DNA of 30,930 bases from contig JAKSYS010000714.1 in the NCBI GenBank assembly GCA_022925895.1, positions 1-30,930 of the forward strand, given 5' to 3'. The DNA comes from Fragilaria crotonensis (Eukaryota > Bacillariophyta > Fragilariophyceae > Fragilariales > Fragilariaceae). This document shows positions 4,280 through 28,890 of the stretch, piece by piece. Made by a program: the position numbers and the translations under genes. The first letter of the stretch is position 1; each line of letters starts with the position of its first letter. Below the pieces are notes generated by a model. The model ran no database searches. It had not been told where the DNA came from and worked only from the letters and a program-made list of their open reading frames with translations.

Positions 4280-5066
4280 CCACGCCGGCAAACACCATGG
4301 CCAGTTGGTGATCACACGTTTGAATTAACACATTGCCGTTGTGTTTTGCCGGTAGATTAATGATACAATAATCATCAAACTCCTCCACAGTAGGTGCATT
4401 CGGCAATCATGCACCATACGTCAGGACTTGACATTGCGACTTGTCGTGGAACCTCCTGCAACGAGCGCCATCACCTCCAGAGTCATGGCCGCAACTGGGA
4501 TTTCACCACAATCCACGTCGACTCCCTCGACTTGGGGCGCGACGGCCGTATCTCAGGTGATGGTGATACTGTTGGGAGCCCATGACGCAGCGGTATACCC
4601 AGCTGTACCATCAAGTTGGCGAATGGTGCATCACCGGTAATGGCAGCGTCTGCCAAAGTAACTTTGATTCTCTCCTTCAACGTCAAACGAACGCCGCACT
4701 TATTCATGAGACCAATTGTCAACGCAACATGGGGGTCTGAATTGAGTTCATCCATGATGGCAAATGGTAACATACATCGCCATCACCGCAAGGGTCTGGC
4801 CATTATCCCGCTAATCGGGGTCTACTAGTGTGGTGTGTGCGTGTGTGATGATGCTGCGAGAGCAAAGCATCAAATGCGTCAAATGCGTCAAACAAGGATC
4901 ACTAGGACAAAACAAGCGATATCGTGGTGGTCGTACCGTCCCTCCAGGCAGTGGTGCGCCATTGGATGTGACAATTACGACGAATATCGAAGTTGAACGT
5001 TGTCCATACGATTCCACGAGATCACGTCGCGATTATGATTATCCTTTGTCCATTGTCCGATATTGA
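4280..5066 (-). pseudogene. Degenerate copy A of an unrecognised gene family
   Basis: Three regions in this window (here, 5690-6350 and 20155-20850) align with each other but match no family I recognise. On the minus strand this copy shows a 96-codon frame (4773-4483) with MDELNSDPHVALTIGLMNKC, then LKERIKVTLADAAITGDAPFANLMVQLG. The frame then shifts, and a continuation reading DTAVAPQVEGVDVDCGEIP and PTVEEFDDYCI lies in other frames down to about 4330. The upstream part (4811-5017, minus) shares a block around NGAPLPGGTV with copy C. Frames break several times, so it is probably dead. The role is unknown; the signal-peptide-like start seen in copy C suggests a secreted or membrane ancestor. 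Confidence 0.45.
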
Positions 5067-5689: not shown

Positions 5690-6350
5690 CAAGACCAGTT
5701 TCGTCTCTACGGCAGGACACAGCGTCGGCGTCATCCCACAGGCAGCCAGGACAAACGCCGTCATGGTCATTTGGTGATCAACGCTCGTTGTCAATCGAAA
5801 CGTTGTTGTTGCGTTTTGACGGTGGACGAGTGATGCAATAATCATCAAACTCTTACACGGTAGCACCCAACTTGTTGCACTCGGCAATCATGCGCTAAGG
5901 CTCTTTCTTATGCCAGGACTACTACGACGTAGGCATGTGCAAATCATTGTGAGACCTTTGGCAAAGAGCGCCACCACCGCCAAAAGTCATGGCGGCATCT
6001 GGGATTCTACCAAAATCCACACCAACTCCCTTGAGTTTGGGTGCGACGACTGTATCTCTCAGGTGCAGGTGATACTGTTGGGACGACGACGACAAGGTGT
6101 CACCCATTTGCTCCATCACGTTGGCGAATGTTACATCACCGTGGACGTCTTCTCATCCACATCCGTGAACAATGTAATGGTTCCGCCGGAACTAACATTG
6201 CCTGCCAAAAAGTCACGCGTGATTTGTAACTTTGATCCTTCTTCACTATTGTCAAGAAAGGCCGAAAGCCGTTCCGTGCTGGGTCGCCTTCCATGTCATC
6301 TTCGACACCTTCGACACTGCACTTGTTCATGAGACCAATTGCGGGTCCAG
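5690..6350 (-). pseudogene. Degenerate copy B of the unrecognised gene family
   Basis: This region aligns with copies A (4280-5066) and C (20155-20850). On the minus strand it shows GPAIGLMNKC near 6340, then VTFANVMEQMGDTL and the best-preserved stretch, DTVVAPKLKGVGVDFGRIP followed by AAMTFGGGGALCQRSHN (6119-5922). EFDDYCITRPPSKRNNN follows near 5830 in another frame. No single frame runs through, so at least three breaks are implied. Copies A and B lie in the same orientation about 1.4 kb apart, which suggests an old tandem duplication. The function is unknown. Confidence 0.45.
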
Positions 6351-8109: not shown

Positions 8110-11100
8110 TCAAGCCCATATGGTCTCCTCGTCGTCGTCGTGTGACACGTCGTCAACCTTCTTCACCCAAATCGTCCTTCCGTTCTCAAGCAGGACAGGT
8201 TCCATCTTTGTCCTCCACTCCGATTCGTGCTCTTTGGCCATGTCTGCCATCGCCTTTAACGCCTTTCCTTCCAAGGTCTGCTGTTTATCATGGTTCTTTT
8301 CGTCCGCCAACTCTTTGATTAATTTCTTCATCTCTTTGGTATGCTCTTTTATTCGATACGTCTTACATACGGCCAGCAACACTTTCGAGGGATCCCAGGC
8401 AGCTGCTACATCGATGGCAATTTGAAGCAACGGTAAAACCGTTACCATCCATTGTTTGTCCACCGAAATCTCAAAGGGATCATGACCTGCATCGCCCGAG
8501 CGCTCACAATAGAAGGTCACCTCGTATTTTTGCTTCGCTGGATTTGTGAACCACGTTTTGAGAGTTTTCGAACGATCAGCGTCGATGCGAGTGATCACCA
8601 CGAGAGTTGGGCACACACTACGATGTTGCAAATGCGCATTGTTCCACGCCAGCCCTTTCAAGCAGTGATGCATTGCGGACGACAACTTATCAAAACGTTT
8701 TTGGTTGTCTTTCAGCGAAAGCGTGATTTGGTCTAATTTTTTGTCGGCTCTCTTCTGCCAGTGGAAGGACCACGTGCTAGCAGGTACGTGCTCACAAATA
8801 TCATCAATTGTGAAAGGTTGGCTCGGACACCCACTGACCAAGCACCGAAGTTGAAAAGTGGCAGGGGTGCTGGCAGGGGCTTCCCAAACCGCTTTTTCAA
8901 GACATTTGGCGCACAATGGGTGAGACTCTTTTTTACACTTTACAACAAAAAGCCGTTCATCAAAGTAACATGGGAGGCCTTGGCCAGCGCAGTCCGGGTC
9001 AGAGTTCGGTTTATCAGTGTTGTGCAGGATATTGTCCAGATCAGCTATGGCATCCTTCGGCTCAACACAGGTTATCCCGTTGTGTACATCTTTGGCATAT
9101 TTCAACAGGTCACGAAGCTTGCCCGTGCTCAATCTTCTTTCAGAGGGAAGGGTGATGCACCCAATCACGGTCTTGCAAACAAGTTCAAGAGCTTCTGCAT
9201 TCCAGTCGGCCCGGCCATCTGCATGGTTTTTGAGCTGTTTCCATCCATCAACGATAGGCGTTTCCTCATTCAAGACGTACGTCTGCAAGACATTCGTTGC
9301 CTTTCCATCATTCAAATGCCCTATAATTAGCTCAGCCATGACAACGCCAAAAGAATACACATCATAGGCAGGAATGTAGTCACAGTTGATGCCTTTTCCT
9401 TTCTTCGAGATATACTCTGGGCACCTGTACAAATGAGTTCCTATTGCGGTGCCTTGCGTTGAGCCACTTTGTAGGATCGACTCCGACGGAACAGCTTCGT
9501 GCCTGTCCAAAACAAACGTCGCCAGCCCACAATCAATGAGCTTCGGTGTAAAATCGTTCATCAGACAAATGTTTGCACTCTTTATATCGCGGTGATACAC
9601 TTTGACACCTGCTGCACCAGTGTGCAAGCAGTGCACTGCTTTCGCCACTTGGTACATGATCGACAGCCGGTTATCTGCAGGAAGGAGGGCTCTCTTGTCA
9701 TCATCCTTGAGAAAGCAGTCGAGGGAGCCGTTGGCTGCGTATTCATACACCAAAAACTGCTCTCCAGCTCTGCCTTTGAAGTTGTAGCCGTACAAGACAA
9801 TGATATTGGGATGACGAAATCTTTTGAGTGTCTGGCAGAATCGTGCATGAGTGTTAGAACTCGAAGGAGATGGGGGCAGGGTACATATACATTGTTCCAC
9901 ACGAGGCAATGGCTCAATGCAGAACACACAACGTACCGAAAGTTCCTTCTGGAAGGATATCAAAATTTCGTCGTTGGGGCCATCGGTTCTTTGAGAAAGA
10001 TTCATCATCTTCACAACGAACTTTTTGGGTTCAGGGAGATAACCATCTTCGACCAAAAAAACATTGCCATAGGCACCCGATCCAAGTTTGCGGATTTTGA
10101 TGCAATGCTTGATGTAGTGATAAGAGAGTTCAACAGGTTCAGCCTTGCAGGTTGTCATCACCTTTGCAAGCGATTCCCGGTTCTTATTTACTTCCTCCAA
10201 AGTCTTAGTATGATCACGGAAGGCTTTGATCGTAGCAAACTTTCTATGTTTGTAAGCCACATCAAAAGCTGTTAATCCTTCATTATCTTTGATATTCGCA
10301 TCCACCTTGCTGTTTTGGAGCAACTCGCGGAAGACTTCCACACGGCCATATTGACTCGCAATGTGAAGGGCCGTTGCACCGGTATTACACTTGAGATTAA
10401 CATCCACATTGTTGTGCTCGAGCAACTTCTTGACGACTTCCTGATTGCCTTCTCGGCTTGCCTGGAATAGGGCTGTTTCACCATTTTTATTTTGGGCATT
10501 CACGTCCACATTGTCGTTCCGGAGCAACTCACGGACGACATCCAGATTGCTGGAGTGACTCGCAATGATAAGGGCTGTATCACCATTCTCATCATAGGCA
10601 TTCACCTCCACATTTTCGTGCTGAAGCAACTCGCGGAAGAGTTCCACATGGCCATTTCGACTCGCAGTGTGCAGGGCTGTTCTACCATCTTTACGTTGGA
10701 GATTCACCTCCACCTTGCCGTGATGAAGCAACTCGCGGACGACTTCCAAACGACCCCTTTGACTCGCCATGTAAAGGGCAGTTGTACCATCATTAGTGCA
10801 TTGGAGATTCACATCCACATTGTCGTGCTGAAGCAACTCGCGGACGACTTCCAAATGACCATCTTGACTCGCAATGTAGAGGGCTGTTGTACCATCAGTA
10901 GATTGGATATTCACATCCACATTGTCGATTTGAAGCAACTTGCGGACGACTTCCACATGACCATTTTGGATCGCGGTGTAAAGGGCAGTTGCACCACTCG
11001 TACATTGGAGATTCACATCCACATTGTCGTGCTGAAGCAACTCGCGGACGACTTCCAAATGACCTTGTTGACTCGCCATGTAGAGGGCTGTTGCACCATC

Positions 11101-11316
11101 ATCAGTACATTGGAGATTCACATCCACATTGTCGTGCTGGAGCAGCTCGCGGACGACTTCCAAATGACCATTTTGACTCGCAATGTAAAGGGCTGTTGCA
11201 CCATAACTATCTTGGGCATTCACATTGGCTCCATCAAGCAATAGGGCACGAACCTTATTGAGATTGCCATCATAGGCGTTGAAGAACAAAGCAACGTCGT
11301 TGTCACTCAACGGCAT
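8110..11316 (-). CDS. Ankyrin-repeat protein kinase with RING-like and conserved C-terminal modules (intact copy 2)
   Basis: An unbroken 1,068-residue protein. Residues 8-375 form 11 ankyrin repeats of about 33 residues, most close to HLEVVRELLQHDNVDVNLQ. Residues ~405-745 are a TKL/RLK-like Ser/Thr kinase with glycine loop GSGAYG (412-417), lysine K436, HRDIKSAN (575-582), DCG in place of DFG (595-597), CPE in place of APE (632-634) and DVYSFGV. A Cys/His cluster at 776-830 resembles a RING finger, suggesting ubiquitin-ligase activity. The region from CPTLVVITR (902) to about 980 is conserved in all copies reaching it. There is no signal peptide or membrane segment, so it is probably cytoplasmic. 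I start at ATG 11316 because all three full copies share it; the open frame continues upstream only from a TTG. The substrate is unknown; a role in sensing or immunity-like signalling is inference. Confidence 0.9.
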   Translation of the reverse strand: MPLSDNDVALFFNAYDGNLNKVRALLLDGANVNAQDSYGATALYIASQNGHLEVVRELLQHDNVDVNLQCTDDGATALYMASQQGHLEVVRELLQHDNVDVNLQCTSGATALYTAIQNGHVEVVRKLLQIDNVDVNIQSTDGTTALYIASQDGHLEVVRELLQHDNVDVNLQCTNDGTTALYMASQRGRLEVVRELLHHGKVEVNLQRKDGRTALHTASRNGHVELFRELLQHENVEVNAYDENGDTALIIASHSSNLDVVRELLRNDNVDVNAQNKNGETALFQASREGNQEVVKKLLEHNNVDVNLKCNTGATALHIASQYGRVEVFRELLQNSKVDANIKDNEGLTAFDVAYKHRKFATIKAFRDHTKTLEEVNKNRESLAKVMTTCKAEPVELSYHYIKHCIKIRKLGSGAYGNVFLVEDGYLPEPKKFVVKMMNLSQRTDGPNDEILISFQKELSVRCVFCIEPLPRVEQCICTLPPSPSSSNTHARFCQTLKRFRHPNIIVLYGYNFKGRAGEQFLVYEYAANGSLDCFLKDDDKRALLPADNRLSIMYQVAKAVHCLHTGAAGVKVYHRDIKSANICLMNDFTPKLIDCGLATFVLDRHEAVPSESILQSGSTQGTAIGTHLYRCPEYISKKGKGINCDYIPAYDVYSFGVVMAELIIGHLNDGKATNVLQTYVLNEETPIVDGWKQLKNHADGRADWNAEALELVCKTVIGCITLPSERRLSTGKLRDLLKYAKDVHNGITCVEPKDAIADLDNILHNTDKPNSDPDCAGQGLPCYFDERLFVVKCKKESHPLCAKCLEKAVWEAPASTPATFQLRCLVSGCPSQPFTIDDICEHVPASTWSFHWQKRADKKLDQITLSLKDNQKRFDKLSSAMHHCLKGLAWNNAHLQHRSVCPTLVVITRIDADRSKTLKTWFTNPAKQKYEVTFYCERSGDAGHDPFEISVDKQWMVTVLPLLQIAIDVAAAWDPSKVLLAVCKTYRIKEHTKEMKKLIKELADEKNHDKQQTLEGKALKAMADMAKEHESEWRTKMEPVLLENGRTIWVKKVDDVSHDDDEETIWA

Positions 11317-11517: not shown

Positions 11518-11915
11518 TGTTGAAACTACTAGTGTAGTAGAGTACGACTGTACAGTATAGTAACAGATCCCGTAATCTAGCTTGCTAGAGTGGTTCGATT
11601 TCAGTAAACCAGATTTTAAATTAATATGAGTTCATCATTCGATGTGCTCAGTCCCATAATTCAATCGCTGATTCTCCCTTCGCCATTCGTGATCGTGCAC
11701 ACTCCTGTGTTCTCCATCGCTGTTAATGTTGCAATGATTCGTCTTCATTGCATTGACGTTTCCGATCCCAGCAGCATCAATGGTCTCATCGTATCCGTTG
11801 TTCCCGATGGATCGCTTTATAGTCGCCACTTCCTCATGTCGCGGATCCTTCATTTTGTGCGCGACCTTCGTCCATCCACCGTCTGTCCACAGTTCGGCTT
11901 CAACGATATTCAACA
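11518..11915 (-). repeat. 3' LTR of the copia element
   Basis: A 398-bp direct repeat, matching 16796-17193 throughout by eye. Its inner part (11635-11915) codes the last 93-94 residues of the polyprotein, and the stop codon lies at 11635-11637. The remaining 117 bases include paired words such as ctagcttgctag and ctgtacag, which could support polyadenylation structure, although no canonical AATAAA is obvious. Confidence 0.95.
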
Positions 11916-14900
11916 CACTCCTGTAATCCTGGTTAGGATCCTCATCAGGATTAATATTCATAATTTGATCGCGGAAGGTCTTGAACTGTGCACCTTGCAA
12001 GGGCTTAGTAAAATAATCCGCCACCATCTGTTTCGTCGGACAATATTCAATCCTGACCTCTCCGTTCGCCACGCGGTCAGTGATGAAAAAATATCGAATG
12101 TTGATGTGGCGCGTTCGCTTGCTGCTCGATGCTCGCCCATTCTTCTCCAGCAGAATGGCGCTTTGGTTGTCCTGGTATACAACGGATTCACTGATGTTGT
12201 ACCCTTGCGCATCCAAGAAGTATCGAGTCCAAATGACTTGAGCGAGGATATCACTCACGCCAACAAGCTCCGCTTCTGTTGAACTCTTCGTGCCGAGCTT
12301 CTGGCGGCAAGACGTCGCGTACACCGCACCCTTCCCAAGAGACAAAACACCGCCGGTGTGGCTTCGCATGTCTGGATGCACCGCATATGATGCATCGGCC
12401 CACCATTTAACAACGTTGCTTCCGTCGGCTTCCAGTGTCAGTGGCATGTTTGCGGTCGCCCGCAGGTATTTCATCACGCGGGCCAGTTTCTTATAGTCGT
12501 CGGAGTCAGGTCCTTTCACGCGAGTACAGAGGAAAGCGACAGTTGGCTGCACGTCGGGTCTCGCACGTTTGCATAAGAACAATAGTTTGGCCGTGTTGTG
12601 ATGAAAGAAGTCGGCCGTTTCTGAGTCTAGCTTTTCACAAGCATCGTCAACCTCGAATAGGTAGTTCGACGCTGGTGTTGCACACTCTCCATTCATGTCA
12701 TCTGGCAACTCGTCAAGCATTCCCTGCACATAGTCGATCATTGAGAATCGAACTTTACCATCGGTCGAGAAGTCGATCGTCATTCCGAGATATTCGTGAA
12801 CGCTTCCGCGGGTCTTAGTCAGAGGCGCCTCCTTCCCGAACTCTGCCTCGATCATGTCAATTATGTTTGTCACCACTTCGGGGTCGGTGTGGGAGATTTT
12901 TAGGTCATCGACGTGCCACAAGATTGTGCATTGCGTTCCATTAATCACTTGGTTGACAACGCAAGAGTCGTATGGATTCGCAATGAACCCCCAATCCTTC
13001 AGTTGTGTTGACAGCCTTCTCCAGAAGAGCAGAGCCGCCCTGAGTGTTCCGTATAGAGCCTTCTTCAGCTTCACGTACAGAACTGGCTTACCGTTCTCGT
13101 ACACGATATATTTCTCGTATAGGTCAGGGTTGACGCACACGAGTAGTTCTGCCATCTTCCCGTCAAGTCTCATGTACACAAGCTCGTCCATATCCGCCTG
13201 CATAAATGCGCCGGGGATGTCCACAGTCGCCACGTCACGACGCTCGTTTGCATCCATGACACACGAGAGCATGACCGCCTCAATTGCCACAGTGGGTGAG
13301 CTGGCATCTTCTTTAGTTGTATGTAGCCTCTGTTTCCTGCCGTCTGCGCAGCCGCGTCCCTTAATCCTGCCATTGCGCTTCTTCTTCAAGAACATCAGAT
13401 AGTGTAGCGCCGCTCGCTTCTCTTCCCTGGTTAGCTCGGTGGCATCCATCGGCTCCAGCACGTCACGATCATGGAGCTGCTGTAGCTCGCTTAACACCGC
13501 ATCAACTCCGGCGTCACCAAATTCCTTGATGCCCTTCTTCATATTGAGTTGGGTCATCACAGTGTGTTCCAGCGTCGTGTGCATATGTCCATAGTCCCTG
13601 GGTTTGCGTGGGCGTAGGTTGTAGGCTGCGGTCCGTTCGCCGTATTGTTGGTCCATTTCTGCCTCGACGTCCTCGTTGTCTGGAACCTCTTCAATCATCG
13701 TTGCATCGATTGATTCGTTCTCCACGGCAGCGTTTTGGTCGATAATGGCATCGTCGTCATCGTCGTCATCGTCGTCATCCGGTTCAGGTTCGACGGCGTT
13801 TGGTTCGAGTTCCGCGAAATTGGGAAGGTCGTCGTCGTTGTTGGGGGCGTCGATTGCGGCAACGTCGTCGTCGGCCATTGCAGGTTGGTCGGAGTTAATT
13901 GCAGGTTGATTCACGTTTGGTGGGTAGTAGACCTCCACTCCTGCGATGTGGCCAGGGTCATCTGGCGGATCATCGTCGTCCTCATCAAACGGGTAATCAA
14001 TCTCCTCATCGTCGTCGTTAGGAGTGTAGTCGGCGTCGTTGTCATCGTCGTCGTCATCGTCCGGGATGATGTCGCCATGCCGGTCAGTGAAGGTGAGTGC
14101 GACGTTTGCAGCGGCGCGACGAGCGAGAGTGTGAACGCGATCGACAACGTCTTGTGGCATCGGCAACTCCGTCCAGTTGTTACGATTGAGCACCCGACCG
14201 GTGCTGAGGCTGTACAGGTAGTAGCCTCCTTGAGCGTTGCCCGTAGGGCGGAGTGCAATAGCACCGGTGGTACGAGTGGCCATGGTGTTGTCGTGTTCTT
14301 CGTGTGCCTGGACATAGGCACCGAATTCAAGTTTGCAGTGTTTGTTAAAATCGATGTGGGAGCCCGTCACGATGGCACGTGGGCTCAGAGTATCTGATAT
14401 ACCATCCCGTGCCGGAAATGTGTTCAACCAGAACACGCAATAGTAGATCAATTCTGCGACCATTCTTCCAGGGATTTTGCGAAACGGCATCGTGTTATAT
14501 ACGCAGCGGGCTCGTTCTTTGATAGTGCGGATGTAACGCTCGGCTTCTGGGACGTGTTCGCCTCTGGCGACAGTGTTGAGGGTGACACCGAACTCGGCAA
14601 GATCGCCAGTAATTCCTTCGAACTGTCCGTCCATGAGCATCGTTCCGGTTGTGAATCCTCGTTTCTTGTACACATTGCGAACGTCCTCGGCCGCCTTGAC
14701 CAATGTCTCGTGTTTCTGGTCAGACATGAGCACCGCCGTTCCAAACTTGATGTTGCGCGAGATGGTCACAAAGAAGGGTAGTTTGTTAACGAACATGATG
14801 TCTGCACCGATAATGACATCACGATACTGGGACATTAATTCTGATGGCACCGGCACGGCGGCGACCTCCACATGTTCGGTGACACGACGAACTGTCTTTC

Positions 14901-16758
14901 CTTTCAATGATCCCACGTCGGCTCCAAAGATCTTTTCGGCAATCAGGATATCTTCACGGGTCACAGGGCAGTTTGGCAGGAGATTCATGTCAACAATCTT
15001 GACGAATTCCTTCGTTGTTGGACGTCCAATCATCTTTTGGATATTCCTGGCCATTACGGCACGGGCATACGCCCGATTCGTGAAGCCAGCCTTATTGTTC
15101 GCAACAGTATTGATCATAACGGTTGCGACGTCACTGACCGGGTCACTGGCATCCAGGAAGTATAGCCCCCGTCCGGACTCGTTGAATACTCGGCTGGTTC
15201 CGTTGGGCTTGATTACGGTGAACTTGTTCCCACCTTCGCTGTCGTAGGTCACGTGGTACCCGTGTTCCTTAACCCTTGACAACGACAAAATGTTGGCGAT
15301 CCCGTTTGGGTGGTACCACACCGTACCGTACCCAGCAAGGTCACCAATAAGATTCGTACTCGCAATTCCGGCGTTGCAGTGTATCTCCATGGATTCCGTA
15401 TCTTCCCGGATGTTGCTGAGAAGGTCACCGTTACAAAAAACGTCCACCGTTGACTGGTTGTCCAGGAGAATCCAGGTCTTGGGGAGCTTTCCATCCTCTC
15501 CAATCTGACATGCGATTCCGTCCGATGCGTTCAAGAACTGGAAATGCATGGTCGGTTCATTGAATTCCCCGCTGGCAATTCCTGCGTTGAGCAACATTGC
15601 TCCGGTCTTAGCCCCGTTCCCTCCGGAGGTGCCTTCCTTCACCTCGTTTCTCTCTGGACATTCCGATGCGTAGTGGCCCTTCTTCTCGCATCTGTGACAT
15701 GTGATGTGAGCCTTCCCGGCTCGTGGAGTCTTGGACTTGTCATCGATGTTGGCGAAAGCCACTCCGTCGGCAGTCGGCGTACGCCATCCGGTTCGCTCTT
15801 GTTTCCAATTTGTGAGCAGGTTATACGCCTCTGCGACGGTGCCTGGGTAGTGGTTGCGGCCTTGGAGGAAGTCGTTCTCGAGGTCGTCGATGAGTCTCCC
15901 GTAACGGCTTCGGTCGCATCCCAGTAAGAAAGCCATGGCCGTGGATCGAGCCGTTGTCTTGTTCGTCACTTCGCGCAGCTGTTCCTCTGTCATGTCTGCA
16001 CGTGGGATCGTCCCTTCGGCTATGACCACGTTGTCTACTCCTGGGTGCGCGGCGATTGATCCACCGCTTTCGGTCACGACAGCGATCACGTTCTGGAAGT
16101 GCTCGAGATAGACTTGAGTGGTTGCGTACTTTCCTTGTGCGCAGTTGTAGTAGCGTTTCAAGGCTTCGTGGAGCGCGTGGGGCAGGTACTTTTGACTCTG
16201 GAACTGGAAGGCAACTCCCTTGACCAGTTTGAGGAGTCCAAGGCCGTCACCAGTGGATGACACTCCTGCAAACAATTCGTGGGCTTCAAGTCTCTGACGC
16301 ATGATCTCGGTGCACTGTCCCCAGACAAGAGAGTAGAGCGTCTTCATGTTTTCGGCGAGGTACGAGAGCTGTTTGACGTGCTCGTCGACGGTTTTCTCCC
16401 AGATGCGTGTTTCAGTTCTGCTGGCATCTTCAGGTGGGTCAGTTGGCATGGCAAACATTGGCAATGTGAGAGTTTCAACAGCCAACCTGGCATCTCCACC
16501 GTAGGTGTAGGTCCTTCCAACAAACTCGGCAATCTCCTTTGTCGTCTTGGTGTACTGATCGGACTGGCGAACGTCCGAGCAGTCGTACACGTGTCCCTTG
16601 AGGTCGGCGCATTTACCTTCAAACTTGGGTGTCCTTGGCGCGAACCCCTTGGCTTGCTGTCCTGAATTCCCGGTCTTCTTCCCAGCGGTTCCGGCCTCCT
16701 TCTGCGAAGTCCCCGCTCCTCCACCATCGGTATCTTTCGACGACGATTCCTCTGGCAT
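11635..16758 (-). CDS. Ty1/copia Gag-Pol polyprotein
   Basis: One uninterrupted 1,707-residue frame from ATG 16758. Gag covers 1 to about 350. A CCHC zinc knuckle lies at 354-367 (CHRCEKKGHYASEC). The aspartic protease core LLDNQS has D433. The integrase acid triad is best placed at D653, D710 and E740, giving a D-x29-E spacing shorter than the usual D35E. An acidic linker (about 899-1040) is packed with Asp runs. Reverse transcriptase has D1180 (VDIPGAFMQ) and the WHVDDLK box with D1284 and D1285. RNase H has D1455 (ADASY), E1495 (SSTEAE) and D1530 (DNQSA), then KRTRHINIRYFFI. The last ~93 residues are read from within the 3' LTR and match no domain I know. No frameshift separates Gag from Pol, so the Gag to Pol ratio must be set otherwise, for example by processing. 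Confidence 0.95.
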   Translation of the reverse strand: MPEESSSKDTDGGGAGTSQKEAGTAGKKTGNSGQQAKGFAPRTPKFEGKCADLKGHVYDCSDVRQSDQYTKTTKEIAEFVGRTYTYGGDARLAVETLTLPMFAMPTDPPEDASRTETRIWEKTVDEHVKQLSYLAENMKTLYSLVWGQCTEIMRQRLEAHELFAGVSSTGDGLGLLKLVKGVAFQFQSQKYLPHALHEALKRYYNCAQGKYATTQVYLEHFQNVIAVVTESGGSIAAHPGVDNVVIAEGTIPRADMTEEQLREVTNKTTARSTAMAFLLGCDRSRYGRLIDDLENDFLQGRNHYPGTVAEAYNLLTNWKQERTGWRTPTADGVAFANIDDKSKTPRAGKAHITCHRCEKKGHYASECPERNEVKEGTSGGNGAKTGAMLLNAGIASGEFNEPTMHFQFLNASDGIACQIGEDGKLPKTWILLDNQSTVDVFCNGDLLSNIREDTESMEIHCNAGIASTNLIGDLAGYGTVWYHPNGIANILSLSRVKEHGYHVTYDSEGGNKFTVIKPNGTSRVFNESGRGLYFLDASDPVSDVATVMINTVANNKAGFTNRAYARAVMARNIQKMIGRPTTKEFVKIVDMNLLPNCPVTREDILIAEKIFGADVGSLKGKTVRRVTEHVEVAAVPVPSELMSQYRDVIIGADIMFVNKLPFFVTISRNIKFGTAVLMSDQKHETLVKAAEDVRNVYKKRGFTTGTMLMDGQFEGITGDLAEFGVTLNTVARGEHVPEAERYIRTIKERARCVYNTMPFRKIPGRMVAELIYYCVFWLNTFPARDGISDTLSPRAIVTGSHIDFNKHCKLEFGAYVQAHEEHDNTMATRTTGAIALRPTGNAQGGYYLYSLSTGRVLNRNNWTELPMPQDVVDRVHTLARRAAANVALTFTDRHGDIIPDDDDDDDNDADYTPNDDDEEIDYPFDEDDDDPPDDPGHIAGVEVYYPPNVNQPAINSDQPAMADDDVAAIDAPNNDDDLPNFAELEPNAVEPEPDDDDDDDDDDAIIDQNAAVENESIDATMIEEVPDNEDVEAEMDQQYGERTAAYNLRPRKPRDYGHMHTTLEHTVMTQLNMKKGIKEFGDAGVDAVLSELQQLHDRDVLEPMDATELTREEKRAALHYLMFLKKKRNGRIKGRGCADGRKQRLHTTKEDASSPTVAIEAVMLSCVMDANERRDVATVDIPGAFMQADMDELVYMRLDGKMAELLVCVNPDLYEKYIVYENGKPVLYVKLKKALYGTLRAALLFWRRLSTQLKDWGFIANPYDSCVVNQVINGTQCTILWHVDDLKISHTDPEVVTNIIDMIEAEFGKEAPLTKTRGSVHEYLGMTIDFSTDGKVRFSMIDYVQGMLDELPDDMNGECATPASNYLFEVDDACEKLDSETADFFHHNTAKLLFLCKRARPDVQPTVAFLCTRVKGPDSDDYKKLARVMKYLRATANMPLTLEADGSNVVKWWADASYAVHPDMRSHTGGVLSLGKGAVYATSCRQKLGTKSSTEAELVGVSDILAQVIWTRYFLDAQGYNISESVVYQDNQSAILLEKNGRASSSKRTRHINIRYFFITDRVANGEVRIEYCPTKQMVADYFTKPLQGAQFKTFRDQIMNINPDEDPNQDYRSVLNIVEAELWTDGGWTKVAHKMKDPRHEEVATIKRSIGNNGYDETIDAAGIGNVNAMKTNHCNINSDGEHRSVHDHEWRRENQRLNYGTEHIE

Positions 16759-16782
16759 GATGTTCGTAGGTATCGGCTTGCG

Positions 16783-16904
16783 TATTAATTTAAAATGTTG
16801 AAACTACTAGTGTAGTAGAGTACGACTGTACAGTATAGTAACAGATCCCGTAATCTAGCTTGCTAGAGTGGTTCGATTTCAGTAAACCAGATTTTAAATT
16901 AATA
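16783..16904. repeat. 14-bp perfect inverted repeat spanning the 5' LTR / leader junction
   Basis: tattaatttaaaat at 16783-16796 is the exact reverse complement of attttaaattaata at 16891-16904, with 94 bases between. One arm straddles the LTR edge and leader, and the other is inside the LTR. In the element's RNA the arms could pair and enclose the end of the LTR next to where a primer-binding site should be. AT-rich arms pair weakly, so chance is not excluded. Confidence 0.7.
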
Positions 16905-17193
16905 TGAGTTCATCATTCGATGTGCTCAGTCCCATAATTCAATCGCTGATTCTCCCTTCGCCATTCGTGATCGTGCACACTCCTGTGTTCTCCATCGCTG
17001 TTAATGTTGCAATGATTCGTCTTCATTGCATTGACGTTTCCGATCCCAGCAGCATCAATGGTCTCATCGTATCCGTTGTTCCCGATGGATCGCTTTATAG
17101 TCGCCACTTCCTCATGTCGCGGATCCTTCATTTTGTGCGCGACCTTCGTCCATCCACCGTCTGTCCACAGTTCGGCTTCAACGATATTCAACA
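16796..17193 (-). repeat. 5' LTR of the copia element
   Basis: A 398-bp repeat identical by eye to 11518-11915. As the upstream LTR for minus-strand transcription it should carry the promoter. It also contains the same 93-codon frame (16913-17194, starting from a TTG) that encodes the C-terminus of the polyprotein in the 3' copy. Confidence 0.95.
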
Positions 17194-19354: not shown

Positions 19355-20152
19355 TTAACACCAATGACCTCTATCCTCTAATCGTTTTTTCACCCACATC
19401 GTCCGTCCGTTCTCACCGACAACTGGTTCCATCTCATCGCGCCACTTCTTCGAATTCTCCTCCTCGTTGGCCATGTCTGCCATCGCCTTTAACGCATTTT
19501 CTTCGAAGGTCTGCTGCTCACCATGTTTTTCTTTGACACCCAACGCATCGATTAAAGCCTTCATCTCTTTGGTTTTCTTAGGAAATAATGGAAACTCCTT
19601 GAGTACGGCCAACGCCACTTTGAGGGTCCATTCGGCTCCGATGTTGACGACAATTCGAAGCCAAGGTGCAACCGTTACCATCCACTTTCTGTCCACCGAA
19701 ATCTCAAAGGGCAGACCACCTGGTATTTTTGCTCCACAGCATTTGTGAACCACGTGTTGAGATCTTTCGAACGATCCGCTGCGATGCGAGTATAATCACG
19801 ACTGTTGGGCACAGCTTCAATTGTTCCGCATTCGCATTGTTCAACGCCCACCCTGGCAAGTGACGGTCAATTACAGACAACTTTTCACCTCATCATTGAT
19901 GTCGTCGACAACTTGTTGGACGACGTCAACTTTCGATGCGACTGTTTCGATGAGAGGTTGCAGAAAGAAGTATTGGATTATCGAATGGTCTATGCGTCCA
20001 ACAATCTCTCCCTCCTGGAAAGGTAGACCCGAGCACCCGCCGATCCGGCACGGAAGGTGGCGGTCGCCATGTACGGCGCCAGGTTTCACCATCGCGTCCT
20101 CAGAAGGCATTTGGAGCAAAGTGCGTGGCAGTCGCTACATGTTCCACCGGTA
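19355..20152 (-). pseudogene. Ankyrin-kinase family C-terminal fragment (fourth copy)
   Basis: Only the region after the kinase survives. Near 20119-20000 the minus strand reads EDAMVKPGAVHGDRHLPCRI, matching the RING-like region of copy 3. Around 19860-19700 it reads LNNANAEQLKLCPTVV and RIAADRSKDLNTWFTN, matching residues ~890-925 of copy 2. After a small deletion and frameshift near 19730 it reads PFEISVDRKWMVTVAPWLRI through ENALKAMADMAN to GRTMWVKK and a stop at 19355. There are several breaks and no ankyrin or kinase part. At about 20152-20160 it passes directly into copy C of the unrecognised family. Confidence 0.8.
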
Positions 20153-21616: not shown

Positions 21617-24600
21617 CTAAAGTAGATTGCAGACCACGAGACCCCGAGACTGCGAGGATTGCTCTTGACTCTGCTCGAGACCCTGCTCTTGGCCCTGCTC
21701 TTGGCCCTGCTCTTGACTCTGCTCTTGACTCTGCACTTGACTCTGCTCCTGACTCTGCTCCTGACTCTGCTCCTGACTCTGCTCCTGACTCTGCTCCTGA
21801 CTCTGCTCCTGACTCTGCTCCTGACTCGTGACATCCACATCTATAGGGATACTACTTTGTTCGCGTGCTTGCGTCACCCAAATCCTCGTTCCGTTCGAAC
21901 TGACTTCCACCATCCACTTCGTCATGTTCTGCTCATTCGCCCCCCGCTTCCACTTCACCAAATTCTCCGGCTCTTTTGCCATTTCAGCCATCACTGTTAA
22001 CGCTTCTCCCGATAAGGTCAACGTTTCAGCATGGTTTCCATTGTTCCACAACGCCCTGGCTAAAGCCCTCATTCCTGCACTGGGACCAGGTATCTGTGAG
22101 GTGGCCGTCGATAGTTTGGTATGGTCAAAAGGTGATCCTATCCTGAGCACGGGGCGGATCTCATCAAGAAAATCTGAAGCCTCTACCAACCATACAGGGC
22201 GCACCGAAACCTCAAAGAAATCGTTGTGACCTTGCTCCCCCGTGCGATCACAGCAGAAAAACACCTTGTATTTTTGCCAAAGGAAATCTCCCGGACATTC
22301 CATCGCGATGGGAGTCACCTTCACTTTAGTTGGACAAGGATTCGATTGCCCGGCAAATGGTTGCACAAAGAAGTAGTGATATACCCCAGCTTCTATGTAT
22401 CGACAAAGATCTCTGTCCTGGAAAGGTAGGCTCGTGCACCCGTCGATCAGGCACGGTAGTCGGCAGTCCCCATTTTTGGCGTCGGGTTTCACCATCGCAC
22501 CCTGAAGACAGTCGGAGCAAAATAAGTGACCCTCGCTACACGTTACAACGGCACGGCGTCGTTTGTCGAATGCTGTTTCAGTGCAGTTGTCACACTCGCC
22601 AAGACCCTCCTTATGCAAGATCGCGTGGAGCGTGTCCATGGCAACCTTCGGTACATCGCCACTTATCCCAGCCTGTAGATTGCTGGCATGTTTCAACAGG
22701 TTGAGGAGCGCGTCCGTGCTCAACCTTCCGTGAGAGATACGAATGAGACACCCAATCACAGTCTTGCAAAGAAGTTCAAGAGCGTCTGCATTCCAGCCGT
22801 CCTGGATATCTGCATCTTTTTCGAGCTGTTTCCATCCACCAACGGTAGCCGTTTCCCGCTTCAGGACGTACTTCTCTAGGACATTTGTTGGCTTGCCATC
22901 ATTCAAGTGCCATAAAATTAGCTCTGCCATGACAACGCCAAAAGAATACACATCAAAGGCTGAAATATAGTCACACTTAATGTGGTTCGCCTTGTACCAG
23001 GTATATTCTGGGCACATGTACCCTTCGGTTCCAAGTGCGCGGCCTAGTGCTGAGCCAGTTTGTATGATCGACTCCGACGGACCAGCTTCGTGCTCATCCA
23101 CAACAAACTTGGCCAGCCCACAATCAATGAGCTTTGGTGTAAAATCGTTCATCAGACAAATGTTCGCACTCTTGATATCGCGGTGAAGCACTTTGACGCC
23201 GTTTACACCAGTGTGCAAGCAGTGCACTGCTTTCGCCACTTGGTACATGATTGACAGTCGGCCAGCTGCAGGAAGGTCGGCTCGCATGCTCTCGTCCTCG
23301 AGAAAGTGGTCGAGGGAGCCGTTGGACGCATACTCATACACCAGAAATTGTTGTTCATGCTTGACATTTAAATTGTAGCCGTACAAGACAATGATATTGT
23401 CATGCTGAAATCTTCTGAGTGTCTGGCGGCATTGTGCAACATTGTTAGACCTCGATGGAGATGGGGGCAGGAATAATTGTTCATTGTTCAACACGCGGAA
23501 CACTCAATGAAGACACAACGTACCAAAAGTTCCCTCTGGAAGGACTCCAAAATGCCGTGTTTGGGGCCATCAGAACTTGGAGAAAGTTTGATCATTTTCA
23601 GCGCGAATAGTTTGGGTTCAGGGAGATCAGGATCTTTGACCAAAAAAACATTGCCATAGGTACCCGATCCAAGTTTGCGGATTTCGATGCAACGCTTGAT
23701 ATACTGATAAGAGAGTTCAACAGGTTCAGTCTTGCGGGTTGTCATCACCTTAGCAAGCGATTTCCGGCTCTCTTTTACTTCCTCCAAAGCCTTGCTTTGA
23801 TCTAGGAAGACCCTCATAACAGCAACCTTTTCATCACGCCTAGCCACATCAAAAGCTGTTAATCCGTCATTATCTTTGAGATTCGTATCCACCTTGCTGT
23901 TTTGGAGCAATGCACGGACGACTCCCACACGGCCATATTGACTCGCAATGTGAAGGGCCGTTGCACTGGTATTACACTTGAGATTCACGTCCACATTGTT
24001 GTGCTCGAGCAACTTCTTGACGATTTTCTGATCTCCTTCTTGACTTGCCTTGAATAGGGCTGTTTCACCATTCTTATTTTGGGCATTCACGTCAACCTTT
24101 TCGTTCTGGAGCAATATGCCGACGATGTCCAGATCCCTGTAGTAACTCGCTATGATTAGGGGCGGTATCACCCTCCTTATTTTGAGCATTTACGTTCACC
24201 TTGTCGCGCCGGAGCAACTCGCGAACGACGTCCGAACCAGCATATCTACACGCGGTGTGAAGGGCTGTTGTACAATCATAAGTACATTGGATATTCACCT
24301 CCACCTTGTCATGATTAAGCAACTCGCGGACTATTCCGACATAGTCATCTCCATTCGCAAAAACAACGGCTTTTGTATCAACATCAATACCTTCGAGATT
24401 CACAGCCAGATGGCCGTACTCGAACAATCGGACGACATCTGAATTGCCCCGTGCACTCGCAACATAAAGGGCTGTTACACCATTATCAGTCAATTGGGAG
24501 ATTCACATCCACATCGTCGATTTGAAGCAACTCGCGGACGACTTCCACATGACCATTTTGACTCGCAATAATCAGGGCTGTTGCACCATCATCAGTACAT

Positions 24601-24911
24601 TGGAGATTCACATCCACATTGTCGTGCTGAAGCAACTCGCGGACGACTTCCACATGACCATTTTGACTCGCAAAGTAAAGGGCTGTTGCACCACCAGTAG
24701 ATTGGAGATTCACATCCACATTGTCGCGTTGAAGCAACTCGCAGACGACGTCCACATGACCATTTAGACTTGCCAATATGAGGGCTGCTACACCACCAAT
24801 ATCATGTTGGGCATTCACATTGGCTCCATCAAGCAATAGGGCACGAACCTCATTGAGATTGCCATCATAGGCGTTGATGATCAAAGCAACGTCGTTGTCA
24901 CTCAACGGCAT
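21617..24911 (-). pseudogene. Ankyrin-repeat protein kinase, copy 3 (three frameshifts)
   Basis: It has the same architecture as copy 2, from ATG 24911 (MPLSDNDVAL) to a stop at 21617. I count 11 ankyrin repeats, then the kinase (HRDIKSANICL, LIDCGLAKF, DVYSFGVVMAEL). A clear RING-like cluster follows (CDNC, then CSEGHLFCSDC, then CRLPCLIDGC), then the C-terminal module (PCPTKVKVTPIAM, FFEVSVRPVWLVE). Breaks against the other copies are an extra base near 24495, an extra G near 24163 and a lost base near 23496, dividing it into frames 24911-24486, 24493-24092, 24189-23488 and 23503-21617. The last 628 codons (kinase to tail) are open but lack an ATG near their start. Unlike copy 2 it ends in a Gln-Glu-Gln-Ser repeat tail. 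Very close to copy 1 in DNA. Confidence 0.87.
21655..21830 (-). repeat. 12-bp tandem repeat coding a QEQS tail in copy 3
   Basis: The plus strand shows repeats of ctcctgactctg. On the coding strand these give a SQEQ tetrapeptide repeated about a dozen times, with drifting Gly and Val variants toward the end. It replaces the acidic end (DDDEETIWA) of copy 2 and is a typical slippage-expanded low-complexity tail. Confidence 0.9.
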
Positions 24912-25100
24912 GCTTCTGAAGTACTCCGAGTTCTGCAGTATTAAACCATAGAGTCGGTTGTTGGCTGTGCAATAGATGTATGGGCTCAGTAGGAGTCATA
25001 GGTGCTCACAATACCGAGATTGAAATTGGTGTATGATAATCGCTCGGGGCGGGAATCAAGCTGATCCACCTCCTGATCTTGAACAGGAGAAAACTTAATG
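24912..25100 (-). promoter_or_regulatory. Conserved upstream block of copy 3
   Basis: It is homologous to about 2404-2590 upstream of copy 1 across roughly 190 bases, with a shared gctcggggcggga word. Homology stops at about 25100, where Helitron-associated sequence begins. It is likely 5' UTR and promoter; no TATA or initiator element is certain. Confidence 0.4.
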
Positions 25101-25348: not shown

Positions 25349-27182
25349 TTACAAATCCTGTTGATGATACTGAGGGCACAGTTTTGATATCAGGACCTCC
25401 TTATAAACAATGTTGTGCAGAAGATGACCATCAGTAAATATGAAAAGATCATGTGGGTTACGAACTCTTGAGAGAGCAACGTAAAGCTGGCCATGTGCAA
25501 ATACACCTTGTGGCAAGAAAATGCCAACTCTTCGCAATGTTTGACCTTGACTCTTGTTGATCGTCATTGCATATGCTGGTTGAACTGGAAACTGACGTCG
25601 TTTGAAGACAAATGGCAGCTCATCTTGAGGTGATAGGAGAGCAATCCGTGGTATGTCCACAATTTCTGCAGTGGTAGGAATCAAACACTGGAGGACAGAC
25701 TGTGAGATACGGCGAACAATGAGACGGGTGCCATTGCTGAGTGTGCTTGATAGGTTTCGAGCAGCATGACCAACATGCCTTTTTTCAGAGTGAGGCAATG
25801 TGGTGGAAGGCCAGATAGCTCCAAAGAGTTCAGGAATTCAGGAGGATAGAGGGTATGTGCAGGATCATTAGGTTCCTCAGATATGATGTTGTCAATACTG
25901 AGAAACACATGTTCATCATGAGGTAGCCTTGAGGTTACCATATCATTGATTCTTTGAACATCTTTGTTTTTAGGACATAGAATAGCACGCTCAGACCAAT
26001 AGGCTGGTTCATTGGAAGAAAAATCATCAAACACATGCTCAACCAGTTCGCTTGTATCCTGAGGCTGGAATATATAAGATGGTAGATTTATTGGGGAAGG
26101 CTCCATATCCTCGATCCTCAACAGGAAAGATGCAAAATGGGAAAGTACTTCTTGGAACTCTGGGTTAGCATTTGTGTTCTGTAAGTCCATTCGCAATCGC
26201 ATATTTTCAGAGAGTTGCATTACATTCACAGATGATGTTTGCCAGACTTTGGATTGTAGGACAGTTGAATGCACAGTGGTAGCTCTTCCAGCATGGCGTA
26301 GTATGGGAAGCACTTGACGAAAGTCACCACCCATGACGACAACCAAGCCACCAAATGGAGCATCATTACGCTCAAGTAAATCACAAAGAGACTGTGAAAG
26401 AACATCAAGACCAACACCCTTAAGCATTGTGATCTCATCAATGATCAAAATCTTTGCAACCTTCATAACTTCTGCCTTCTCTTTTGATAGGTTGCACATG
26501 GATGTTTCATATAATTGAATTGGAAGCCCGGATATATAGTGCAGAGTACGGCCCAAAGGGGCAAAGTTTGAGGCAGCAATGCCTGATATGGCCGTTGCAA
26601 GGGCAACCTTCCCTTCACTGCGCACCTTGGCAAGGATCATCCTGAACAACTCCGTCTTACCTGAGCCTGCAGGTCCATCAACAAAATAAACATTTTTCTG
26701 ATTTTCAGTACCAGCATTGTTGTTCACAGAAGCAAGTACAGCATCAAAAATAGCACGCTGTTCAAGATTCAGGAGAGGGAGGCGATCCAGCTGCTGTTGA
26801 ATATCAGTGTTGGATGATGACAGCTGCAATTCTAACAAATGGTTGACTGAATTGTTGTCCATGGCACTCCCATGCTCCTCAACCAGAAGTGTGCGGAGGG
26901 ATGGTATCCATTCGAATACAGAACGGCTGTGCATTATCCCCAGAAGGGCATCAAGTTTACGCACAAGGAGGTCCTGCAGGTGTTGTTCACTAAGGCTGGG
27001 TTGACGGTGTGCATAGTCTTCTGACAGGGCAGCCCAGTGAGAGTCATAGAGTGACCTTGGGTCAGAGACATCACAGTTGAAGAGGATGATTGCAAAAGTC
27101 TTCTGAGCCTTGCTGGGGAGAGTGTCTGTGTGGCTTCCTGCATGGCTCGATGCCACTCAGTATCATCATCTAGAAGACCCAA
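25349..27182 (-). pseudogene. Helitron Pif1-like helicase domain (frameshifted)
   Basis: An SF1B helicase of the Pif1 family, the unwinding half of a RepHel transposase. The long frame (27156-25681) has Walker A in VDGPAGSGKTELF, Walker B in ILIIDEITM, then VMGGDFRQVLPI and QLSENMRLRMDL. After a one-base shift near 25758 the frame 25798-25349 gives NGTRLIVRRIS, AYAMTINKSQGQTL and HGQLYVALSRVRNP, with a stop at 25349. A further shift near 27095 separates it from GLLDDDTEWHRAMQEA (27182-27100). All core helicase motifs are present, so it was functional before the shifts. There is no ATG near the start of the long frame, as expected for an internal part of a larger protein. Confidence 0.9.
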
Positions 27183-28890
27183 TGTACGACAGGCATCTTG
27201 AAATGTTGGACAAAGTACATCATCAACGGTTCAGAGCTTCAAAGCTTGTTGCACCTTTCACTACAGTCAACATCCTTCGCAGGAAGTATCTCTCACCAGA
27301 AGAAGGGGAAGCACTGTAGAGGCGAGACACAGTGGGGAATGTCTGCCGGTGATTGGAGCGTCGTACCCAGCACTTCTCGACACCAGCACTTTTCCATGTG
27401 TAGTGTTGTGGGATGTCATGATAAAGGAACTGGCGAGCATACTGATCATGCCGATTGAGGTCCAACCAGGCAGTCAATTGTGTACAGGGTGGTCCTCTTG
27501 CAAGCACTTGAGCAACATTTTCATTTTCCTCAAAAACCACTGATTGCTGATTGGGAAGATGGAACATTAGGCGCATCACATTGGGCTTCTCTGAATGTAG
27601 ACGAAGGCTGAAGAGGCGCCAGCATGCCTCTGATGCAGAGACATAACGTCCATCAAGATAGAGCTTGATCTCATCAACATCTTCCCCCATCTGGACTGCA
27701 GCACGGTCGTGTCCCTTGTATACATACTTGTAGAGGTACTTGACGGCCTGCACTGAATTGCACACCTCAACATTGATATGACAATCATACTTCTTGGTAA
27801 GATGGCAATTATATGGCACAACCCAGCGGTTGTCCAACTCAGCTCCTCGAACAGTTACAGTCCTTCCATCATCACGCCGATGATATTGAGGGAATCCATC
27901 ATCATTGAGTGTTGTCTCATCTTGAAAGGGCCGGGGATACTTGTCCTTGCATTCACCTGCTGGCTTTGTAGAACTATTACAACACTTCAAATTTTTCCAT
28001 CGATTGGGGGAAACTTTGGTGCCACAGGGCCCATGCAACATACACCTCTTCACAGTTGCAAAAAGTTCAGGATCTATCAATGCATCTGGGATCTCAGCTG
28101 AAACAATATGGTCAATGTCAGATTCTGTGCGCGGTTTGTCATTCTCTGCCAAAATGACCAGTACATGTGCATGTGGCAATCCTCGCTTCTGAAATTCGAT
28201 GGTGTAGATAGCAGCCACAACCCTTCCAAGCACTTGCCGCTTCTGGAGGTCAAACATCATCTCTGTAAATTTGAGATGGAACACTCGTGCCACCAAATCT
28301 GGTCTGTCATTTACAGTTTGGCCAGGAAGAAGGTTTTCAACAACTTCTGGCCACTGCGGATTGGTTGTCATTGTAATAAAGAGGTCTGGCTTGCCCATTC
28401 GGCGCACAATTGCCAATGCATCCTGGCAAAGCTGGTGCATGTTTCTTGCACTTCCAATGTGAGATGAAGGCAGAATGATTCGTCGCCCCAGCTGTCGAGT
28501 GTTTGTCACATCCTCACCAGCAACAGCATCTGCAATGCCTTGATAAAGTTCAGCACGCAATCTTGGTTGATTAAGACGGATGAAATTAAGACGGCCTTGT
28601 TCCACTTGGGCATAGCAGTCCACAATGTATTGGTGAAACAGCTTCCTGCAAAGTGAAGGTGATTGGAGAACTGAGCAGCAGGTCGCAAAAAGCCGAAATG
28701 CAGCATGCATGAGGCAAGTTAATCTTGTCAAATGTGGAGTCGTAGCATTTGGACCAGTTTGCATCATGCCAGGATGCCAGCCTCTTGGGGAGCCTGTTGG
28801 AAAAAGGAGTACATATGCCAGTGGAGAATAGTCGGGATGGAGCTCTGAGATTGACTGAATTGCTCCAGCACGGCAATACTCGAATATCAC
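27183..28890 (-). pseudogene. Helitron HUH Rep nuclease domain
   Basis: A 555-codon open frame (28890-27223) is the middle of the Helitron protein. It begins after a shift near 28888 with SISELHPDYSPLAYVLLFP and contains the Rep motifs: FITMTTNPQW (171-180 of this frame), the metal-binding HAH (240-242) within QKRGLPHAHVLV, and the double-tyrosine motif KYLYKYVYKG with Y385 and Y389 four apart. These residues cut and join single strands in rolling-circle transposition. A shift near 27230 follows TVVKGATSFEAL, and the normal continuation TVDDVLCPTFQDACRTLGLL lies in the next frame. The catalytic residues are intact, and decay is by indels only. Confidence 0.9.

Follow-up and report, generated by a model that had tools for sequence, protein, structure and literature searches.

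Diatoms, which account for much primary production, suffer attack by viruses, bacteria, chytrids, and oomycetes; to our knowledge, their recognition receptors are poorly known. NLR receptors link a repeat array with a signalling part, and their genes occur in clusters with decayed copies. In brown algae, candidate immune receptors of the LRR-ROCO type possess a part built of repeats for which variable ligand binding has been proposed, and the same account gives at most four ROCO copies per species for several other SAR lineages' members, among which diatoms are named (PMC11378527). Another combination is found in KEEP ON GOING (KEG), a RING ligase of Arabidopsis which is reported to unite RING, kinase, and ankyrin repeats in one protein and a mutation of which suppresses edr1 (PMC4022593, PMC11020294). 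Here we describe a family of ankyrin-kinase-RING-like proteins of Fragilaria crotonensis; no description of such a diatom family was found in the open-access literature.

The window, i.e., the whole stretch of DNA analysed, comprises positions 1-30,930 (30,930 nt, forward strand) of contig JAKSYS010000714.1 of the F. crotonensis assembly GCA_022925895.1. The gene studied, designated copy 2, is located on the minus strand at 8110-11316 (ATG at 11316, stop codon at 8110-8112) and forms a single open frame of 1068 codons. It is a genuine gene whose protein combines an ankyrin array with a predicted TKL/IRAK-like kinase, followed by a Cys/His cluster and a conserved C-terminal module. The paralogues have the order of domains given in the initial annotation, i.e., ankyrin, TKL-like kinase, RING-like cluster, and conserved module. 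The ankyrin repeats reported there were recovered at 10162-11295 (minus strand, residues ~8-385), where Ank_2, the Pfam family of tandem 33-residue ankyrin repeats, scores 246.1 bits against a cut-off of 27.3 (E 3e-74) and Ank matches nine stretches; at least nine repeats are present.

The kinase domain (9082-10104, minus strand, residues ~405-745 of the unspliced frame including an intron) contains the residues of eukaryotic kinases, namely GSGAYG at 412, VVK at 434-436 with K436, HRDIKSAN at 575 with D577, and LIDCGL at 593 with D595 of the DCG motif, and it matches Pfam Pkinase (E 1.7e-27); neither this match nor that of Ank_2 is attributable to chance. HRDIKSAN is found in 31 and LIDCGL in 30 of 36 family stretches, fragments included. 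In a sequence search of the PDB, IRAK1 was the best match (E 9e-19), followed by IRAK4 and SYMRK; two further best relatives, the entries 2qkw and 3hgk, are titled just 'Protein kinase' and are presumably tomato Pto. By its best sequence matches, the kinase is thus TKL/IRAK-like, in agreement with the TKL assignment made before. The initial annotation had also called the gene intron-free, which is incorrect: residues 461-495 correspond to a GT-AG intron of 105 nt at 9832-9936 (minus strand, phase 0, GTACGT...TGCCAG, open in frame), which splits the kinase, so that the protein of copy 2 has 1033 instead of 1068 amino acids. Exon 1 (9937-11316, minus strand) encodes the ankyrin repeats and the kinase N-lobe, and exon 2 (8110-9831, minus strand) encodes the remaining kinase, the RING-like cluster, and the C-terminal module. 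Pkinase scores 115.2 bits (cut-off 31.7; profile positions 3-198, 326-aa kinase part) without the intron and 96.9 bits (profile positions 47-198, whole protein) with it. An intron of 89-105 nt was seen 31 times at the equivalent position, among 26 of the 36 loci retrieved and at three sites within the window, and 20 of these 31 introns are not readable through, owing to their length or to a stop codon. Only one of the seven differences between the introns of copy 2 and its paralogue L009 falls on a third position; therefore, no coding constraint is seen. A retained coding insert was considered and rejected; the 11 introns that are open come from few related groups.

The family has many members, which the initial annotation had named as a sign of support: ~83 places on 37 contigs of the genome (75 and 127 matches merged), 51 of which span at least 650 nt and many of which are clustered or broken. 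All seven relative frames that were scanned, each of them found via its C-terminal module, contain Ank and kinase. The module itself (8149-8634, minus strand, residues ~895-1056, no fold assigned) has the invariant residues C902, C937, G944, H945, W956, and W1050. Its conservation, claimed before, is confirmed. With the 299 C-terminal residues as query, 75 matching stretches were found in this genome, copy 2 included. The module has no relative in Pfam and none by sequence in the PDB (best E 0.79), and we regard it as a candidate new domain. Single scans of viral and prokaryotic collections with one C-terminal module, which find close relatives only, revealed no relatives. Within the window, three further copies are present, all on the minus strand and all broken or partial. 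Copy 1 (1-2487) is a broken relative, truncated where the contig ends, with an Ank frame at 1246-2487, a kinase frame at 471-1196, and an intron at 924-1025; copy 3 (19358-20134) consists of fragments of the RING and the C-terminal module; and copy 4 (21617-24995) has the same layout as copy 2. The apparent frame change of copy 4 near 23488-23503 is due to its intron at 23423-23523, and its ankyrin part has genuine frame changes.

These broken copies, a Copia element with identical LTRs located 201 bp upstream of the ATG of copy 2, and Helitron frames within the window would suit a family that was amplified near mobile elements and is now mostly decaying, its diversity reflecting relaxed constraint and not selection for recognition. 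The dN/dS of the whole ankyrin array, 0.74-0.76, points in the same direction. Two classes of repeat positions were compared: contact positions 2, 3, 5, 13, 14, and 33, numbered as the variable positions of DARPins, and framework positions. Randomized positions on the concave face are reported to bind targets. In eight paralogue pairs with 56 repeats, dN/dS was 1.53 at the contact positions (bootstrap 1.07-2.23) and 0.48 at the framework positions (0.38-0.61), and the observed contact-position rate was reached by 14 of 20000 random sets of six positions. The eight pairs are all that were ever tried, and this lower value is given first because three pairs omitted at one stage (copy 2-L003, L010-copy 1, and copy 2-copy 1) showed a smaller excess. 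Six pairs had been examined first, and from these, three pairs sharing no gene were drawn afterwards, for which the contact value is 1.94 (1.30-3.15) vs. 0.38 for the framework. The signal is unevenly distributed: when tested singly, two of seven pairs had a significant contact-site excess (p ~2.5e-4 and 2.7e-4), and in two of seven the contact-site rate was below the synonymous rate of the array. Repeat arrays may also be misaligned or exchanged between copies. Relaxed constraint contributes, given that some genes occur in more than one pair and that a number of partners are broken copies; however, a framework value of 0.48 combined with contact positions above 1 means that relaxation alone is insufficient.

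The other domains differ between subgroups. The L018 group shows constraint on the kinase, the RING, and the C-terminal module: L018 vs. L020 gave dN/dS values of 0.85 for the ankyrin array, 0.31 for the kinase N-lobe, 0.11 for the C-lobe, 0.26 for the RING, and 0.18 for the C-terminal module, and L018 vs. L017 gave 0.09 for the kinase C-lobe and 0.14 for the RING. The C-lobe values argue against general decay, which we consider quite improbable as an explanation of the family. In the subgroup of copy 2, comparisons with L009, L001, and L003 gave 0.66, 0.46, and 0.89 for the RING and 0.78, 1.02, and 1.03 for the C-terminal module; the output part thus shows no clear constraint in this subgroup. 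The diversified contact positions next to constrained domains in the L018 group look as expected of a recognition device.

The 'RING-like' cluster of the initial annotation holds at the family level and less so for copy 2. There, the cluster (8797-8991, minus strand, residues 776-840) retains C794, H799, C802, C805, C825, and C830; its first pair, C-x2-C in relatives, reads C783-Y-F-D786, so that the second Cys of the eight RING ligands is replaced, by an Asp codon at 8959-8961 (minus strand), and no Pfam RING was found up to E 0.1. Asp can substitute as zinc ligand in some RINGs. When family stretches were selected by the presence of the remaining six ligands, 38 of the 40 obtained also had the first C-x2-C; the exceptions are copy 2 and its close copy L005, which also has Asp and is 92% identical to it in residues 1-151 of the 299-aa query. 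The family thus possesses eight Cys/His ligands in cross-brace order, all of them present in the RING of copy 4 (~22370-22609), with a last pair spaced C-x4-C vs. C-x2-C in the classical RING.

RBR ligases with a RING1 are exemplified by parkin, HOIL-1, and the RNF216 type; RING2 is their catalytic part, and RING1 works with RING2. A likeness of the cluster to the RING1 of parkin was presumed at the outset. In local hhalign comparisons, the probability was 79 for the RBR RING1 of the same genome, 57 for RING-HC, 21 for all RINGs, 3 for PHD, 2 for RING-H2, and 0.2 for MYND, and among the profiles compared the cluster thus best resembles RING1 of RBR ligases. IBR was absent from copy 2 at E 0.1 and from seven relatives at E 0.001, the tails of 29 members contained neither IBR nor RING family matches at E 1, and one of 29 RING stretches had a weak IBR match (E 0.026). 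As neither IBR nor RING2 was found, the family is not one of RBR ligases. AlphaFold2 models of residues 770-1068 of copy 2 with two window copies (pLDDT 39.5) and of the copy 4 RING with four window rows (pLDDT 46.1) are far too uncertain for a fold, and the Foldseek rows for the latter model (HOIL-1 and parkin in five of seven, all E > 2) carry no evidential weight.

The cluster might alternatively be a structural or docking zinc finger devoid of ligase activity, the protein being only an ankyrin-guided kinase, which would be compatible with a receptor function. Pfam matches of the RING type do not go beyond E 0.00077 in 29 members and are thus weak (copy 4 below the cut-off), the profile it comes closest to belongs to ligases whose IBR and RING2 were not found here, the last pair is atypical, and loss of a ligand is tolerated in one copy. 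However, six ligands are kept in 29 of 29 aligned C-modules, the first pair is nearly as constant, and the RING is constrained in both L018 pairs, so that we give this alternative a real but minor share of the probability.

Our preferred reading is that the family evolves by birth and death and encodes receptor-like signalling proteins whose recognition surface is diversifying. That it represents a large diatom set of intracellular receptor-like signalling proteins whose ankyrin recognition surface is under selection we hold to be an evenly balanced proposition. The array would be the recognition part, its contact positions varying more than synonymous sites and far more than the framework, though to a degree that differs from pair to pair. 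The ligand would probably be another protein, and its binding would be signalled to the TKL/IRAK-like kinase, whose catalytic residues are present and which may be active and become activated in this way. The RING1-like cluster would act together with the orphan C-terminal module as the output part. Docking of an E2 by the cluster is probable for most paralogues, and would lead to ubiquitination of either the partner bound or the complex to which the kinase belongs; since copy 2 has lost one zinc ligand, its activity as a ligase may be reduced or absent. Growth and decay would proceed by local duplication, as in clusters of recognition genes, which the observed clusters and broken copies suggest. 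Of the recognition and signalling device proposed initially, the shared domain order, the solved relatives of the kinase, and the diversified contact sites next to the constrained domains of the L018 group speak in favour, whereas the intron, the lost ligand, the missing Roc/COR, a C-module not clearly constrained in the subgroup of copy 2, and the combination of the same domain kinds in plant KEG speak against it. An immune role is plausible. More tentative is a variable innate-recognition system of diatoms, equivalent to the NLRs of plants and animals or serving self/non-self recognition, with dozens of intracellular receptors in which the ankyrin concave surface instead of LRRs is the selected face, combined with an IRAK-like kinase, a free-standing RBR-RING1-like ubiquitin module, and a new C-terminal domain.

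Diversified contact sites would suit varied substrates equally well as varied ligands, and the retained first Cys pair (in all but two of the 40 stretches) would also fit diversified KEG-like ubiquitin ligases, in which the array would recruit substrates as an adaptor and the kinase would control the ligase, the substrates differing between paralogues and belonging to ordinary signalling or turnover and not to defence. Against this stand the different domain order, the lack of a HERC2 match in copy 2 and seven relatives, the missing ligand of copy 2, and the 83 places with their many fragments and broken copies, which would be unusual for housekeeping regulators; we consider it unlikely.

In comparison with known systems, NLR receptors share with the family the linkage of a repeat array with a signalling part and the clusters containing decayed copies, but the diatom proteins are without a nucleotide-binding domain: neither NB-ARC nor NACHT was matched in copy 2 or seven relatives, and a single NB-ARC match was obtained for the whole genome by a search able to miss weak ones. 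The LRR-ROCO proteins of brown algae are likewise stramenopile proteins with a repeat-based part whose binding is proposed to be variable (PMC11378527), but have LRR and Roc/COR in place of ankyrin; the Roc/COR profiles suggested in the initial annotation matched neither copy 2 (at E 0.1) nor the seven relatives (at E 0.001). IRAK, Pelle, and RLK kinases (TKL) are the closest solved matches of the family kinase and carry a death domain or ectodomain and DFG, whereas the family has an ankyrin array and DCG. For RBR ligases, the likeness lies in the RING1 of five genes of the same genome, which tops the profile comparisons; they have RING1-IBR-RING2 with a catalytic Cys, in contrast to the family. 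The closest known layout is that of plant KEG, with the same kinds of domains in another order: KEG is reported as one gene with the order RING-kinase-ankyrin-HERC2 (PMC4022593, PMC11020294), whereas the diatom proteins form a large family with ankyrin-kinase-RING-like and an orphan module in place of a HERC2-type match. New here is the contrast in dN/dS at the contact positions of the ankyrin arrays, and the family, being large and clustered and combining a conserved kinase with a binding face that diversifies and an output of the ubiquitin type, would be a concrete candidate for diatom recognition receptors.

The 1068-codon frame open on the minus strand at 8110-11316, the very high Pfam scores of its ankyrin array (nine single-repeat stretches in the gene) and a Pfam kinase domain match all agree with the initial annotation, whose main observation therefore holds; no Pfam match to Roc/COR was found in the gene. 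The description as intron-free was not borne out, as the kinase appears to be interrupted by a 105-nt intron (9832-9936) with counterparts at the same exon ends in relatives. A frame change occurs at this kinase site in many relatives, and a pattern scan yielded 31 introns between identical exon ends. Of the 36 family loci fetched, 26 contained such introns and ten had none that matched the scan pattern; three of the introns lie in the window. The family introns are 89-105 nt long, and each begins with the donor GTACGT or GTAAGT and finishes with AG. Twenty of the 31 block read-through, and that of the gene under study contains no stop, which is why the gene appeared intron-free; since the intron is open in frame in 11 of the 31 copies, automatic gene models may label it as coding. 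Removal of the intron gives the text FQKELS-TLKRFRHPNI near helix C and shifts the start of the match in the Pkinase profile from 47 to 3, and the score rises from 96.9 bits (whole protein as query) to 115.2 bits (kinase part alone as query). The predicted spliced protein has 1033 residues. One of the seven intron differences from the family locus L009 falls at a third position, so that third positions are not favoured.

The catalytic motifs of the kinase are retained in most of the 36 family stretches considered, fragments included (HRDIKSAN in 31, LIDCGL in 30). Among solved kinases, those nearest in sequence are IRAK1, two entries titled "Protein kinase", which we take to be Pto, SYMRK, a lectin receptor kinase and IRAK4.

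The RING-like cluster and the C-terminal part were aligned for 29 members, from family frames of the 36 fetched loci and the window that span profile positions ≤14 to ≥250, shorter matches being excluded. C794, H799, C802, C805, C825 and C830 (numbering of the unspliced frame) are present in all 29. In a second count, the first C-x2-C was present in 38 of 40 stretches chosen for the six ligands, some of which are identical copies and thus not independent; the two without it are the gene under study, which reads TGT-TAC-TTT-GAT where L009 and L001 have TGT-TGC-AAT-TGC, and its close copy L005. When the family profile was compared in local mode with small sets of sequences taken from this genome, the best partner was RBR RING1 (probability 79, E 1.6e-5), followed by RING-HC (n=4; 57), all RINGs (n=20; 21), PHD (n=10; 3), RING-H2 (n=16; 2) and MYND (n=10; 0.2); in global mode RBR reached 44 and every other set remained below 5. 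The RBR set comprised five sequences from eight IBR loci (those omitted are two loci that gave no hit and a near-duplicate in which the frame changes), and their selection by a RING pattern allowing C-x(2-4)-C or by eye slightly biases it towards the spacing of the family. Among PDB sequences the family profile matched RNF4 (E 0.012) best, with TRIM69 (E 0.015) next; RING ligases make up most of the 33 matches up to E 1, which also include GAL4 and GATA-3. Sina_RING matched weakly in 15 of 29 scanned members (best E 0.00077) and B-box models in two and five of 29; IBR and RING2 were not found. The term "RING-like" thus stands for the family, in which sequence comparison supports a putative RING-type zinc finger resembling RBR RING1, and is to be restricted for the gene under study, which is short of one ligand and has no Pfam RING match up to E 0.1. 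The conserved C-terminal module was likewise recovered; it spans about 160 residues, and nine columns are invariant across the 29 members, C902, C937, G944, H945, W956 and W1050 among them. In Pfam, matches came from single members only, at best at E 0.029, and the best PDB match stood at E 0.79.

Searches of the genome (62.1 Mb, 881 contigs), in which the window corresponds to bases 1-30930 of contig C685, returned 75 and 127 family matches. Merged at 700 nt, these form 83 places distributed over 37 contigs, and 51 of the places reach at least 650 nt; the gene number is below 83 because fragments and possible allelic contigs are counted in. Ankyrin repeats and a kinase were found in all seven long frames scanned, a set separate from other long frames of the fetched loci such as one of 1023 aa in L007. 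The only genome match to NB-ARC listed at E 0.001 lies at G000:C394:36286-37077. Silicic acid transporter matches reach 646 bits, which indicates a diatom genome, and two frames appear as fused transporters, one of 1456 aa with three matches (G000:C97:29749-33762) and one of 1008 aa with two (G000:C771:21664-24330).

The window holds four family copies: the gene under study, a broken copy truncated at the contig end (copy 1), fragments (copy 3) and a copy whose ankyrin part has frame changes (copy 4). Between gene copies lies a repeat pair of about 380 nt and 70% identity (4296-4636 and 5762-6141). A retrotransposon (11518-17193, minus strand), labelled Copia-type from the protein of its frame, is located 201 bp upstream of the ATG of the gene under study; its 398-bp LTRs (11518-11915 and 16796-17193) are 100% identical and it is bordered on both sides by the 5-bp repeat ATTAG. 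This insertion is recent and could have altered the promoter of the gene. A Helitron (25349-29400, minus strand) with Helitron_like_N and PIF1 helicase is spread over several broken frames, and a tandem array of units of about 99 bp, about 90-94% alike, is open on both strands at 29613-30276.

Selection was compared domain by domain. For the family loci L018 and L020, dN/dS was 0.85 in the ankyrin part, 0.31 in the kinase N-lobe, 0.11 in the C-lobe, 0.26 in the RING and 0.18 in the C-terminal module, and for L018 and L017, whose ankyrin alignment was unusable, 0.44, 0.09, 0.14 and 0.18 in the last four. The gene under study and L009 gave 0.72, 0.67, 0.30, 0.66 and 0.78 in the same order from the ankyrin part onwards, and its C-terminal module about 1 against L001 and L003. 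The L018 group thus shows a clear contrast between recognition and output parts, which in the subgroup of the gene under study is confined to the kinase C-lobe. Within the repeats, six contact positions (2, 3, 5, 13, 14 and 33), which we take to be those of designed ankyrin proteins, were fixed ahead of counting. Six pairs were inspected first, and three pairs without a shared gene (25 repeats) were chosen afterwards; these three gave a dN/dS of 1.94 (1.30-3.15) at contact, 0.38 (0.29-0.49) at framework and 0.55 at non-contact positions, and 13 of 20,000 random six-position sets reached the rate of the contact set. Pooling of all eight pairs tried (56 repeats, genes being shared among pairs) gave the same direction at a lower value, with 1.53 (1.07-2.23) at contact and 0.48 (0.38-0.61) at framework positions and 14 of 20,000 random sets reaching the rate of the contact set. 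In single pairs (n=7), the contact nonsynonymous rate exceeded that of other positions in all seven and the synonymous rate of the array in five, significantly in two (L018-L020 and the gene under study with L009). The contact-site signal is real in the pool and uneven from pair to pair.

A varying contact face, a constrained kinase, clusters with decayed copies and, in the L018 group, a constrained output fit a recognition family, with putative ligand binding, activity and immune role. A family of ligases like Arabidopsis KEEP ON GOING (KEG), in which varied substrates would account for the contact face, fits nearly as well. No description of the present diatom family was found in the open-access literature searched. 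KEG has the domain order RING-kinase-ankyrin-HERC2 (PMC11020294, PMC4022593), and as it unites the same kinds of domains, the layout of the diatom family is a variation rather than a new category.
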